A stretch of DNA of 64,000 nucleotides from Polyangium spumosum (GTDB taxonomy: Bacteria > Myxococcota_A > Polyangia > Polyangiales > Polyangiaceae), in contig NZ_WJIE01000013.1 in assembly GCF_009649845.1 (NCBI RefSeq), positions 62,001-126,000 of the forward strand, in the 5' to 3' direction. A program made the translations under genes and the position numbers. The notes under the pieces were generated by a model, which made no database searches, was not told the origin of the DNA, and was given only the letters and a program-made list of their open reading frames with translations. This document shows, one piece after another, positions 1,604 to 59,871 of the stretch (positions are counted from its first letter, which is position 1; each line of letters starts with the position of its first letter).

Positions 1604-1632
1604 ACGCCAAGCTTTTTCCCCACGAGGCTCGC

Positions 1633-2856
1633 ATGAACCTTGCTGCACAGCGCTCGCCCGCCGCGCGCGCGGGCGCTTCCGATCGATTCGTCGCCGATGA
1701 ATTCTTGAGCATTCGCGGCCGCGCGGTTCGATGGGAGCTCGCCGCATGGTCGGCGTCGATCACGCAGGCGCTCGCCCGAGCGCTCGCGCGGAGCCGCGAG
1801 GAGCGCCTCCCCGCGCTCGCCGCGTGCTTCGAGGAGGCGACGCTCGTCGCAGGTCACCTCGGCCGGCACGAGGACGCGCGCCGGATCGCGGAGGCGGCCG
1901 TCCGGTGCTTCGGGGCGATCGCCCGGCAGAAGCGCTCGGCCGAGGCGCTCGCGTTCGCCGTCTCCGCGCTCGCCTCGGTGGGCGCCGCGGAGCGCGCGGC
2001 AGGCAGGCTCGACGAGGCGCTCCTGCACCTCGGCCGCGTGCGTTCGCTCGGCCTCGGCGCGGAGATCGGCGCGGGGCTGCTCCGCGTGACGCGCGCGCAA
2101 TGGGAGAGCGTGCTCGCGCTCGAGCCGGCCGCGGCGCGGGCGATCGCGCTCGCTTCGGCGACGGAGGCGCTCTCGGCGCTGCTCGCGGCGCGCAGGCTCG
2201 AGGACGTCGTCTCGCTCGCGCTCGTGTCGCGGCGCGGCGCGACCGATCCCCCGGCGCTCGAGTGGGCGCGCAAGGAGGCCGCGCTCTCCGCGCTGTGCCA
2301 CCTCGGCCGCCCCGACGAGGCGCTCGCGCTCGCGGCGCGTTACACCGTGGAGGCGGGCGAAGGCGAGCGGCTCGTGTTCGAGCTGCGCCGCGCCGAGGCG
2401 CTCGCGTGTTTCGGCGACGCCGGAAAGGCGCGCGCGCTCGCCGAGGTGGTGCTCGGGCAGCTCGAACGAAAATGGCGGGCGCGGCCCGGGACGCTCGAAG
2501 ACGTGCGGCTGGCCGCGCGGGTGGCGCGGCTCTGCGCGCTGCTCGGGGAGGCGTCGTCGGCCGATTTTTGCTGGGCTGCGCTGGCGGAGGCGCTCGCAGT
2601 GGGCGATGTGCCGCTGCAGGCGGAGCTGCTCGTGCACATCGTCGAGACCGACTGGGACGAGGAGCGACGCGAAGACGCGGGGGAGCTCTTGCGCGCGGTG
2701 GCGCTCGCTTCCGGTTATCGATTGCCCGCGGCCGAGCGTGTCCTCTCGCCCGAGGACGGCCCGCGCTCGGCGCGCCCGGCGGACGAGCGCGCTCCTGGTT
2801 TCTCCTCGCTCGTCGCCTCGCTCTGCGCGCTCGATCCGGGGCGGCGCACGTCGTAA
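1633..2856 (+). CDS. Hypothetical helical-repeat (TPR-like) protein
   Basis: 407 residues with no specific family recognised. The sequence is a long series of amphipathic helices rich in Ala, Leu, Arg and Glu, with TPR-like spacing (for example GRLDEALLHLGR and GRPDEALALAARY), so it probably forms a superhelical scaffold. There is no signal peptide or membrane segment, so it should be cytoplasmic. The ATG at 1633 is preceded by a GAGG ribosome site. It is divergent from the reductase, and the sensor kinase follows after 127 bp. A regulatory or adaptor role is only an inference. Confidence 0.7.
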   Translation: MNLAAQRSPAARAGASDRFVADEFLSIRGRAVRWELAAWSASITQALARALARSREERLPALAACFEEATLVAGHLGRHEDARRIAEAAVRCFGAIARQKRSAEALAFAVSALASVGAAERAAGRLDEALLHLGRVRSLGLGAEIGAGLLRVTRAQWESVLALEPAAARAIALASATEALSALLAARRLEDVVSLALVSRRGATDPPALEWARKEAALSALCHLGRPDEALALAARYTVEAGEGERLVFELRRAEALACFGDAGKARALAEVVLGQLERKWRARPGTLEDVRLAARVARLCALLGEASSADFCWAALAEALAVGDVPLQAELLVHIVETDWDEERREDAGELLRAVALASGYRLPAAERVLSPEDGPRSARPADERAPGFSSLVASLCALDPGRRTS

Positions 2857-9093: not shown

Positions 9094-9249
9094 GGTCACC
9101 GCCTCGCCCGGAGCAATTGCATTCGCCGTGCCACGCAGAAAAAAGCCGGAAAAATGGGGCCGTCAGCGGGTTGTCGCGCCGATCCTGCTCGATTGGAGCG
9201 GCGCGGATCCCGATTCGCGCGGAAACGGGATGACGCGGCTGCCCTGGGT

Positions 9250-57253: not shown

Positions 57254-58267
57254 TCACTCCGCGTCGGCGTGCGCCGACTGCAGCTCCGCCTTCACGGCGA
57301 ACGCGCCCGGCTTGCGGACGCCGGTCGGAGGCGCGAGGCGCTTGCGCTTGATCATCTCGACGAGCGTCGTGCGGTTCAGGCCGAGCAGGCGCGAGGCGCG
57401 GTTCTTGTTCCAGCCCGTGCGCTCGAGCGCCTGGAGGATCATACGCGTCTCGAACTCCTCGACCGCGGCGCGCAGGTCGAGCCCCTGCACGGGTAACGCG
57501 CCGAGCAGGAGCGGCAAACTCGTGGGCTTCGCGCCGCGGATCTCCTCGGGAAGGTCCGAGGCGGTCACGTAGGGGCCTTCGGCGAACGCGATCGCCTGGT
57601 CGATCGCGCGCTCGAGGCTGCGCACGTTCTCCGCGAAGGCGTGGCCCTCGAGCAGCGCGACCGCCTCCGGGGAGATGCCGCGCAGGTCGTTGCGACGGGC
57701 GCGCGTCGCGTGGAGCTCGAAGAAGTGCTGCGCGAGCTCGGGCATGTCCTCGCCGCGTTGCTCCAGCGTCGGGACCTCGACCGTGCTCGTGGCGAAGAGC
57801 GCGACGAGCGCGGCGCAGGGGAGGCTCGGGTCGAGCGGCGCGGCGGAGGTGCAGACGAGGCGCGCCTCGCCGCGGCTGGCGAGCGCGACGAGCTCCTCGT
57901 GGAGCTCGGGGGCGAGGTGATCGAGCCCGGCGACGACCAGCGTCCCGCCGCGGGCGCTGTCGGCGGCGCTGCGGAGCGCGGCGAGGTCGATCGGCGCTTC
58001 GGCGCCGGAGAGCACGACGAGCGGGCCCTGGGCGGCCGTCTCGTGCAGGACCCGGGCGAAGAATCGCTTGCCGGTGCCGGGCTCGCCCGCGAAGAGCGCG
58101 GGCGTGCGGGAGAGGGCGAGGCCTTCGAGCGCGCGGACGACCTCCTGGATCGCGGCGCTCTTGCCGACCACACGAGATCCCAAGGAGGTGAGCGCCTGGC
58201 GTACGGCGCGGGTCTGCGAAGAGGGCTGGGTTTCGTGGTTGTGCTGGTCCTGCGTGGCCGTCGACAT
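57254..58267 (-). CDS. AAA-Fis regulator that lacks the sigma54-contact loop
   Basis: 337 residues with GGGGAG before the ATG. It has the AAA+ and Fis layout of sigma54 activators: Walker A GEPGTGKRFF (about 60-70), a degenerate Walker B-like GGTLVVAGLDHL, and a C-terminal Fis helix-turn-helix (NKNRASRLLGLNRTTLVEMI). The GAFTGA loop that touches sigma54 is absent, and the domain is shorter than usual. It is therefore more likely a DNA-binding modulator than a true activator. The gene itself lies behind a near-consensus sigma54 promoter with a palindromic upstream site. Confidence 0.88.
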   Translation of the reverse strand: MSTATQDQHNHETQPSSQTRAVRQALTSLGSRVVGKSAAIQEVVRALEGLALSRTPALFAGEPGTGKRFFARVLHETAAQGPLVVLSGAEAPIDLAALRSAADSARGGTLVVAGLDHLAPELHEELVALASRGEARLVCTSAAPLDPSLPCAALVALFATSTVEVPTLEQRGEDMPELAQHFFELHATRARRNDLRGISPEAVALLEGHAFAENVRSLERAIDQAIAFAEGPYVTASDLPEEIRGAKPTSLPLLLGALPVQGLDLRAAVEEFETRMILQALERTGWNKNRASRLLGLNRTTLVEMIKRKRLAPPTGVRKPGAFAVKAELQSAHADAE

Positions 58268-58311
58268 ATCAGGAACTCCCCGAGTCTGAAGTCAGGTCCG
58301 CAATGGAGTTT

Positions 58312-58327
58312 AGCAACGAGCATGCCA
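58312..58327 (-). promoter_or_regulatory. Sigma54 promoter (TGGCATG-N4-TTGCT)
   Basis: On the minus strand this reads TGGCATGCTCGTTGCT, matching the sigma54 consensus TGGCACG-N4-TTGCW at all key positions. Transcription should start near 58301, about 33 nt before the ATG at 58267, leaving room for the GGGGAG ribosome site. Confidence 0.85.
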
Positions 58328-58346
58328 GCCAAGGAATTGGCGGAGA

Positions 58347-58365
58347 TTTGCGCAATCTGCGCAAA
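58347..58365. promoter_or_regulatory. 19-bp palindrome upstream of the sigma54 promoter
   Basis: TTTGCGCAATCTGCGCAAA has perfect 8-bp arms around a 3-nt centre. It lies about 45-65 bp upstream of the inferred transcription start, where upstream activator sites of sigma54 regulators often lie. It is the best candidate binding site for an activator, perhaps the encoded Fis-type protein itself. The rest of 58366-58470 shows no feature. Confidence 0.6.
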
Positions 58366-58470
58366 CAGGGGGTCGTCGGAGACCCATGGTAACGCCTGTG
58401 ATCTAGCGAAATGTCGCGCGTGTTGATCCGGTGACAGCCGCGCGGGGGGGTCCGTGGGTACCCGGGGAGG

Positions 58471-59871
58471 TCAGCGCCGACCCACCTTACGGGAGCGCCG
58501 CACCATCGCCGCGGCCCCGGCGAGGGCGGTGAGGGCGAGGCCCGCGGGCGCGGGGCTCTTGGTGTCGTCGCCGCCCGCGGCGCGGCAGGCGCAGCCGCTC
58601 TCCTGCGAGATGTCCTGCGAAGCGGAGGGATCGACGGGGCCGCCGAAGCCCACGCCCTTGAGGAGGATCGTCTGGACCGGGTCGCTCGGGTCGTTCGAGG
58701 CGATGAACAAGGTCGCCTCGAAGGGGCCATTTTTCTTGGGCATGAAGCGCACGGCCGTATCGGCGGTGATGCCGGGCTCGATCTCGAGGCCCGGGTCCCA
58801 CGCGGGGAAGAGCTCGGGGTTGCTCGAGACGATCGTGAGCTTCGCCCGCGCCTCGCCCGCGTTCCACAAGCCGAAGCTCTCCAGGCTCTTCTGCCCGACC
58901 TCGACCTCGCCGAAATCGATCTCTTCCTTCGGGAGCACGACGTCGGGCAGCGGGACGTGCACGCGTTGCTTCGGGAAGACCCACTTCGTCTGCGTGATCG
59001 GGAAGGAGATGGGGATGTCGAAGAGGTCGAACGCGAAGTTCTGGCCGAGGATCTCGATCCACATGCCCGGGATGATGTGGATGATGCCGTCGTAATCGAC
59101 GTGCCCCTCGGGGTGCACGTCGAGGTCGATCGCAGGGCCGTTGAGGTAACTCGCCTTCGTCTCGCCGCCCTCCTCGGTGATGTCGCCGCCGACGACGGTC
59201 TTGCCCTCGGACTCGACGACGATCCGCTCGGTCGTGTACGTCGCCGCGAGCTCCATCTGCACGTCGACCTTGAGGCCGCCGTCGACGAAGACGCTGGGGA
59301 TGCTGATGATGTCGCCGAGGCCAACCTCGATGATCGTCTGCGGCTGGGTCTTGCTGGAGAGCGTGGCGCCGGGCTTCCACCCCCACGCGTCGAAGATCTG
59401 CTCGCCCTCGACCTGGAAATCGATCTGCGGGACGTACGGGATGTCGCCGACCCAGTCGTACGGGATGCCGCCGATCTTCACGTGGAGCTGCGCCTGCGCG
59501 CCGAGCTCGACGCCGTAGTGGAAGCCGAGCAGGCCGCCGCTCGGGGTGCCCGGCGCGCGCACGAGCAGGGCCTCGGGCCAGCTCGTCTCGAGCGCGCCTT
59601 TCAGCGAGACACGCGTCGTCGCATAGACGCCCGCCCAGACGTGGACCTGCACGGGCGAGCCCTGAGGGACCCAGCCAGTGTCGAAGCTCCATTCGATCGG
59701 GAGCGAGTCGCTCTCGGAGAAGGAGATCGGGGCGGTCTTGCACCAGTCGGGATCGACGTCGCAATCGACGGCGACGACCTCGGCAGACGCCTCGCCAGAA
59801 AAAAGGGCGACCGCGAGGGCAAACGTGGTGGCCGCGAGAAAACAAGGTTTCGAAAGGAAGCGCGTTCTCAT
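58471..59871 (-). CDS. Exported MYXO-CTERM surface protein
   Basis: 466 residues. A cleavable signal ends ASA|E, followed by a long beta-rich body; a C-terminal sandwich domain (about 330-415; EEIDFGEVEVGQKSLESFGL, LKGVGFGG) resembles HYDIN/ASH or choice-of-anchor-type domains. The end is a MYXO-CTERM signal: a Cys-containing start GCACRAAGGDD, a membrane helix (ALTALAGAAAMV) and a basic RRSRK tail. Such tails are processed by a myxosortase and anchor proteins at the cell surface. Function otherwise unknown. Confidence 0.85.
   Translation of the reverse strand: MRTRFLSKPCFLAATTFALAVALFSGEASAEVVAVDCDVDPDWCKTAPISFSESDSLPIEWSFDTGWVPQGSPVQVHVWAGVYATTRVSLKGALETSWPEALLVRAPGTPSGGLLGFHYGVELGAQAQLHVKIGGIPYDWVGDIPYVPQIDFQVEGEQIFDAWGWKPGATLSSKTQPQTIIEVGLGDIISIPSVFVDGGLKVDVQMELAATYTTERIVVESEGKTVVGGDITEEGGETKASYLNGPAIDLDVHPEGHVDYDGIIHIIPGMWIEILGQNFAFDLFDIPISFPITQTKWVFPKQRVHVPLPDVVLPKEEIDFGEVEVGQKSLESFGLWNAGEARAKLTIVSSNPELFPAWDPGLEIEPGITADTAVRFMPKKNGPFEATLFIASNDPSDPVQTILLKGVGFGGPVDPSASQDISQESGCACRAAGGDDTKSPAPAGLALTALAGAAAMVRRSRKVGRR

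Follow-up and report, generated by a model that had tools for sequence, protein, structure and literature searches.

The window analyzed here, a 64,000-nucleotide stretch of the Polyangium spumosum genome, carries on its reverse strand a gene for a protein of 337 residues built like a sigma54 enhancer-binding protein and, upstream of it, a sigma54-type promoter, a conserved leader, and several inverted repeats (Table 1). A Pfam scan of the protein assigned a Sigma54_activ_2-type AAA core to residues 34 to 168 (the best match for the core), AAA_lid_14 to residues 170 to 249, and a Fis-type HTH_8 domain (PF02954) to residues 269 to 304 (E value of 6.9e-14), and returned no receiver domain. The first-pass annotation of this DNA, made from the letters alone, had described a product that keeps Walker A and a Fis-type helix-turn-helix (HTH) and lacks the GAFTGA motif, and both the Pfam scan and an alignment of the six Polyangium orthologues agree with this description. 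Orthologues with 74 to 77% identity and a shared gene order were found in all five other Polyangium genomes searched, the reading frame is unbroken in each of the six species, and Walker A reads GEPG[AT]GKR across the genus.

Table 1. Coordinates of the relic gene, its protein motifs, and the elements upstream of it in the window
Feature	Position	Strand	Remarks
Relic enhancer-binding protein gene	57254-58267	-	ORF, 337 aa; decayed AAA+ core and Fis-type DNA-binding domain
Linker and Fis-type HTH	57332-57514 (residues 252-312)	-	Mean identity of 99.5% over six species, dN/dS of 0.07
Former Walker B, GGTLVVAGLD for GGTLFLDE	57920-57949	-	From alignment; GAFTGA loop before it deleted
Walker A, GEPGTGKR	58064-58087 (residues 61-68)	-	Retained; coordinates computed from residue numbers
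Expected 5' leader, 34 nt	58268-58301	-	Highly conserved; no variation at 36 of the 44 columns of 58268-58311
Sigma54-type promoter, TGGCATG-N4-TTGCT (TGGCATGCTCGTTGCT)	58312-58327	-	Consensus match and conservation; expected start at about 58301
Dyad, GCCAA-TTCC-TTGGC	58328-58341	-	Abuts the -24 element; conserved in six of six species save one base in one species
19-bp palindrome, TTTGCGCAATCTGCGCAAA	58347-58365		Present; species-specific, single copy, not conserved
Candidate operator copy 3, GGGTCTCCGACGACCC	58370-58385	-	Center at about -77; 10 half-site bases invariant in six of six species
Candidate operator copy 2, GGGTACCCACGGACCC	58448-58463	-	One mismatch in P. spumosum; center at about -155
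Candidate operator copy 1, GGGTCGGCGCTGACCT	58468-58483	-	One mismatch in P. spumosum; center at about -175

Several motifs characteristic of a working activator have been lost throughout the genus. GAFTGA is missing from all six Polyangium orthologues, in which the loop 1 segment is deleted; all 24 first-line homologues that come from other genera have a loop of the GAFTGA type (GAFTG or GSFTG). The Walker B segment reads GGTLV[VL][AV][GDA][LI]D in place of the GGTLFLDE[IV]G of the homologues, so that the DE pair is gone, and the six proteins have also lost the segments that we take, from general knowledge of the protein family, to be loop 2, the sensor I asparagine, and the arginine finger (FREDLYYRLN). 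Across the genus, the AAA core (residues 31 to 160) shows a mean amino acid identity of 0.76 and a dN/dS of 0.69, and the lid shows values of 0.745 and 0.41, dN/dS being the ratio of Nei-Gojobori means over the 15 pairs of the six species. An AF2 model of the protein has a mean pLDDT of 81 and a pTM of 0.64, and its best match among solved structures is the sigma54 activator ZraR (1ojl; E value of 4.3e-16); this fairly confident model suggests that the AAA+ fold has outlived its working parts.

The promoter that the first-pass annotation had placed in front of the gene is the sole exact match to TGGCAYRN4TTGCW within the window, where up to one mismatch yields three matches, this one counted, against 0.54 expected; the two other sites, with one mismatch each, lie at 1629-1644 (forward strand) and 9118-9133 (reverse strand). 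It is kept in all six Polyangium genomes in an upstream alignment, and an 18-bp block overlapping it (58322-58339) is invariant in all six, a conservation which argues that the promoter is real and leaves the expected start where the annotation had put it. We also considered GCCAA-N4-TTGGC as a separate motif and rejected it, since it belongs to the promoter block and, taken with the adjoining TGGC, occurs without excess in the six genomes.

The same annotation had pointed to a 19-bp palindrome and proposed that the protein binds this TTTGCGCA sequence and thereby represses or tunes its own activator. The palindrome is indeed there, and its position, -46 to -64 relative to the expected start, and its symmetry speak for such a model. 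Upstream alignment shows, however, that it is missing from the other five Polyangium genomes, although the DNA-binding end of the protein is nearly identical in them, and all six species agree at 7 of its 19 columns, which is similar to the surrounding spacer (25 of 62). The search for further copies that had been suggested as a check found a single one in the 10.76-Mb genome at zero to one mismatch, and at up to three mismatches 28 sites, counting the palindrome, with 39 for the reversed control; copies being no commoner than those of the control, nothing points to a regulon. When 58268-58470 was shuffled 500 times by mononucleotide, 18 of the shuffles contained an inverted repeat with arms of 8 bp and a spacer of up to 12, so that the palindrome lies only weakly beyond chance. 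We therefore rejected it as the operator and regard the model built on it as very improbable.

The conserved candidate operator appears instead to be an array of three copies of the inverted repeat GGGTC-N6-GACCC, found with zero to one mismatch at the same places in all six Polyangium genomes, their starts lying about 216, 196, and 118 nt upstream of the ATG. Copy 1 lies partly within the upstream gene (58471-59871), at its 3' end, and in copy 3 exactly 10 of the 16 columns are invariant across the six species. The fifteen sites of the five sister species hold one mismatch between them, and P. spumosum has one in each of two copies. When the six whole genomes were searched for paired copies, five contained a single match apiece, at this gene's promoter, and the control gave none; the P. 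spumosum genome is not matched by the pair pattern because its sites carry mismatches. Of the first-pass design, a sigma54-type promoter ahead of an AAA-Fis protein without GAFTGA stands, as does control of its own promoter as the likeliest role; the palindrome as the site does not, the conserved GGGTC-N6-GACCC copies taking its place as candidate operator.

Such a protein could also have been recruited to other genes as a regulator of sigma70-dependent promoters, in the manner of the NtrC proteins without GAFTGA of Rhodobacter or Caulobacter, self-control then being incidental. Several GAFTGA-less proteins are reported to have taken this course (PMC10274813), and such a role would agree with the strongly conserved HTH; the genomic distribution of the motif, on the other hand, argues against it. 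Exact single copies in the P. spumosum genome number 9 against 10 for the control, without any genome-wide excess, the paired site occurs only at this promoter in the six genomes, and no clear promoter link was seen at the eight other exact sites, near which the best sigma54-like score is 12.3 (L133 and L137) versus 14.6 at the gene itself, on a simple weight scheme devised for this analysis from the consensus. A regulon on exact copies of this motif in the protein's own genome was rejected on these grounds, and we regard the sigma70 role as quite unlikely; in Polyangium, the array is particular to this one gene. No close paralogue able to share the sites was found in the P. spumosum genome, and the NRTTLVEM helix of the protein was not seen, by eye, at the C termini of 17 paralogues from the same genome, taken from 62 matches.

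A further reading is that the gene is on its way out, core and promoter decaying together without function. The fast-evolving core, the lost catalytic motifs, and the weakened sites in P. spumosum would fit this. The intact frame in six of six species, the low dN/dS of the HTH, and the conservation of both promoter and candidate operator do not, and we hold this reading to be highly unlikely.

By sequence comparison, the gene falls in a distinct family of homologues. When an intact homologue was used as the query against the six Polyangium genomes, the best match (51%, 304 bits) was to generic activators, versus 65% and 455 bits for an orthologue from another genus (G019), and no intact member of the family was found in the six genomes. 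In a tree built by a quick method on the lid and HTH (85 rows and 148 columns, few columns for the number of rows), the six Polyangium proteins group together (support of 100) inside the family, and 17 hand-picked own-genome paralogues fall outside it, the family branch having an SH-aLRT value of 95. Within the family, they belong to a group of 17 rows with L017, L018, and nine others; their place there rests on a support of 87 and a long branch (0.91). By this sequence comparison, the gene would be the representative of the family in Polyangium and not a stray paralogue. Three genomes, G017, G047, and G091, yielded a pair of family loci apiece (L029/L173, L024/L162, and L033/L184, respectively).

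The arrangement of promoter and upstream sites recurs among the intact homologues. Upstream regions were taken from 55 of 63 homologue loci. Of the eight dropped, L199 was in the wrong frame, L161, L169, L188, L197, and L167 gave no match to Walker A (some being cut at contig ends), and L187 and L037 had too little upstream sequence; the 55 regions are not independent, as they include near-identical relatives (e.g., L164/L165 and L177/L178) and three genomes contribute two loci. With up to one mismatch, GGGTC-N6-GACCC was found at 31 sites in 20 of these regions, compared with 2.0 in shuffles (maximum of 5 in 30 shuffles), and exact copies numbered 8 compared with 0.03. When the spacer between the same half-sites was varied, counts peaked at a length of 6 (31 sites), followed by 11 at a length of 5 and 0 to 4 at the other lengths from 0 to 12. 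The motif at zero to one mismatch is not visible in the remaining 35 regions, and subclades of the family may use other sites. Sigma54-type promoters with a score of at least 12.5 were present in 30 of the 55 regions versus 1.5 (maximum of 4) in shuffles; thresholds on this score are arbitrary, counts being set against shuffles, and its antisense control was high as well, with 12 of the 55 regions reaching a score of at least 13. Eighteen of the 20 motif-bearing regions have a sigma54-type promoter (score of at least 12), always downstream of the motif, by 58 to 268 nt, so that a sigma54-type promoter with upstream motif sites, as in Polyangium, is a feature of 18 of the 55 intact members tested. 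The distances from site to promoter are 131 and 58 in L019 and 136 and 58 for copies 2 and 3 in Polyangium.

Searched on one strand of 108 family genomes, the bare paired motif showed no excess (34 places versus 32 for the control), and 9 of the 34 places lie at the activator (five in Polyangium and one each in G001, G024, and G031) or beside flgB (G008:C635). The last of these (G008:C635:708-744; L145) is a paired GGGT-N8-ACCC about 270 bp upstream of flgB (1018-1383; L248) on a short contig, which probably forms one split locus with the activator of the same genome, itself cut at the end of another contig.

The neighborhoods of the intact homologues are flagellar. Over 700 bp, an antisense sigma54 site scoring at least 13 was present at 25 loci out of the 55, and in 21 of these the divergent frame (about 130 residues) looks FlgB-like by eye; the three divergent genes tested by NCBIfam were all FlgB (69 to 73 bits; cutoff of 59), and the divergent gene of L021 matched FlgJ at 35 bits, far below the cutoff of that model. 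The flgB-like divergent genes (at L025, L034, L038, L168, L177, and others) have a sigma54-type promoter of their own, mostly (T/C)GGCAC-N5-TGCT, near that of the activator, and one set of sites could serve both genes. Ten neighbors from four loci were scanned. Two exceeded the curated cutoff for FliF, two that for FlgI, and one that for a flagellar motor protein; one neighbor is best described as FlgE, being above the FlgE/F/G subfamily cutoff, and two as FliI, being above the FliI/YscN subfamily cutoff with type III secretion ATPase models scoring close, and the flagellin and FliD matches were both below their cutoffs. By tblastn, every one of the 15 intact neighborhoods (L075 to L089) carries flagellar genes close to the activator, the queries having come from L075, L083, and L086, themselves among the 15, and the matches in L082 being weak (27 to 31%); none were found in five Polyangium neighborhoods (L070 to L074) or in the window. 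Taken with the promoters and sites, this context argues that the intact homologues constitute a family of flagellar activators, part of which would be self-regulating by the same signs as seen here.

Across whole genomes, the FlgB model was the sole flagellar marker sought; the search for other flagellar genes covered the window and regions, at most 20 kb long, surrounding the gene. At an E value of 0.001 or lower, the FlgB model matched in 56 of the 108 family genomes (44 above the curated cutoff), and in 4 of 14 genomes of a control set; the six Polyangium genomes gave no match. Members of Polyangium are described as gliding and nonflagellated. Decay of the activator goes with the absence of flgB: 46 genomes have an intact activator and an FlgB match, one (G013) has an intact activator without a match, none has a decayed activator with a match, and seven have a decayed activator without one, the tally covering 46 of the 56 genomes with an FlgB match and 8 of the 52 without one. 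Since the seven decayed genomes represent only two lineages, we claim no significance for this association. Of the 46 matches, 37 are above the cutoff, 8 are just below it (48 to 55 bits), and that of G033, perhaps another rod protein, scores 28.5 bits; two of the 46 activators (L161 of G008 and L169 of G090) are cut at contig ends, so that the loop is not visible. In the exceptional G013, FlgG, FlgI, and FlgK matches adjoin the activator, and its flgB may have been missed by the search.

The second decayed lineage is a single genome of another genus, G069, whose family member (G069:C342; L167; L255) is separately without GAFTGA and has a serine in place of the Walker B aspartate (FVSEL). In two other genomes of that genus, G068 and G070, the family member (62 to 65%) keeps the GAFTGA loop (L025 and L037) and the FlgB model finds a match; G069 has no FlgB match in its genome, and no flagellar genes were found in the 18.9 kb around L167. 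The best sigma54 score within 700 bp upstream of L167 is 11.3, which is not strong, and no operator copy was found there at up to one mismatch; this homologue, which at first sight seemed to retain the promoter-operator module, is therefore not counted as doing so.

Because the gene lies outside a flagellar cluster, in a genome without an FlgB match, we call it a relic, and we are highly confident that it descends from a flagellar activator. Taken as a whole, the explanation that we consider moderately likely is that the relic now acts as an ATP-independent autoregulator, probably a repressor, and it would run as follows: (i) the ancestor was a flagellar sigma54 activator that switched on its own gene within the flagellar cluster, of a type whose own promoter was often of the sigma54 class with GGGTC-N6-GACCC upstream and, in many genomes, faced flgB with its own sigma54-type promoter; (ii) the Polyangium lineage would have lost its flagellar genes; (iii) the activator would have shed the parts that remodel polymerase, namely, loop 1 with GAFTGA, loop 2, Walker B, sensor I, and the arginine fingers, while retaining the DNA-binding end, the sigma54 promoter, and the three upstream sites; (iv) the relic most likely occupies these sites without ATP hydrolysis, as the intact family presumably does when self-activating; and (v) it would limit its own sigma54 promoter, which another ATPase would have to activate. 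Binding of the relic to the three sites is likely; whether the net effect on its promoter is repression we judge to be evenly balanced.

A sigma54 promoter requires an active ATPase, and an activator without ATPase machinery is not expected to open complexes. The need for GAFTGA in sigma54 open-complex work is described in PMC7175178, and the relic, having neither loop nor ATPase, should be unable to open sigma54 complexes. Bound at about -77, -155, and -175, it could thus only hinder or help another activator, and we prefer hindrance, that is, autorepression, by analogy with Caulobacter NtrC. Two observations bear on this preference: two of the three sites in P. spumosum carry one mismatch, which counts against it, and the six-species alignment shows no conserved enhancer for another activator upstream of the promoter, so that either activation of this promoter comes from elsewhere or something is missing from the repression model. 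The latter observation bears also on a split activator, in which the relic would be a DNA anchor on the three inherited sites and would recruit, through its retained AAA fold, a separate ATPase bearing GAFTGA and lacking a site of its own there, DNA binding and ATP hydrolysis residing on different chains. The sigma54 promoter is conserved, the presumed sites of the relic are the sole enhancer-like conserved elements seen upstream, and the AAA fold persists together with Walker A, as the match of the model to ZraR indicates; FlgR of Helicobacter pylori activates without binding DNA (PMC3930126), which would make the two jobs separable. The fast evolution of the AAA core argues, however, against a conserved protein interface, and no partner was identified, and we consider such an arrangement unlikely. 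Were it true, a promoter would have survived though its own activator can neither hydrolyze ATP nor touch sigma54.

In several respects, the autorepression favored here has known counterparts. Proteins without GAFTGA include NtrC of Caulobacter and of Rhodobacter capsulatus and VspR of Vibrio cholerae, and Caulobacter NtrC represses its own operon and has dozens of binding sites (PMC10274813). Common to these and the relic is the loss of the sigma54 loop from an enhancer-binding protein, with DNA binding kept there and predicted here. Those proteins carry a conserved aspartyl phosphorylation site, whereas the relic has no receiver domain, additionally lacks Walker B, sensor I, and the arginine fingers, and has as its sole detected clustered site its own, at a promoter that is itself of the sigma54 type. 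The myxobacterial Nla28 likewise has multiple sites upstream of sigma54 promoters of enhancer-binding protein genes and is autoregulatory (PMC9765219), but it is proposed to act on tandem imperfect 8-bp repeats, unlike the inverted repeat GGGTC-N6-GACCC. Xanthomonas FleQ, when introduced into the nonflagellated predatory Lysobacter, represses in an HTH-dependent manner (PMC9927559); both cases turn a flagellar activator into a repressor in a nonflagellated bacterium (predicted, in ours), but in Lysobacter fleQ was lost and was reintroduced experimentally, whereas in Polyangium the descendant stayed and decayed.

The comparison extends to the intact family. Flagellar sigma54 activators are known under the family names FleQ/FlrA, FlbD, and FlgR. 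Like these (PMC3930126), the intact homologues lie in flagellar clusters beside flagellar sigma54-type promoters; they differ in showing no receiver domain, by eye, in the sequences read, and the Polyangium protein differs further in being without the activator machinery. Searches of the literature, judged from titles and abstract openings, found no description of this flagellar regulator family, nothing joining enhancer-binding protein, GAFTGA, and myxobacteria, and no related-looking sigma54 enhancer-binding-protein paper on GGGTC/GACCC, and did not bring up the combination seen here, an activator without its engine that is kept after the loss of flagella together with the sigma54 promoter and enhancer of its own gene. 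The locus would offer a natural case in which the engine of an activator is lost and its DNA-binding end and own switch are kept, tied in Polyangium to the loss of flagella, and it supplies GGGTC-N6-GACCC as a candidate operator motif for a flagellar regulator family. It also poses the question of how a sigma54 promoter works while its sole visible enhancer belongs to a nonactivating protein. With genera that still bear the flagellar genes and a second, separate decay at hand, the switch from activator to binder is open to experiment.

Some smaller features were seen along the way. The leader contains CTGACTTCAG, a small dyad on the same strand as the gene, which could be a further control element. 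The C-terminal end of the product of the upstream gene (58471-59871, reverse strand) resembles, by eye, a MYXO-CTERM sorting tail, and at about 10001 on the forward strand of the window lies another stretch resembling an enhancer-binding protein, which matches an intact homologue at 38.8%.
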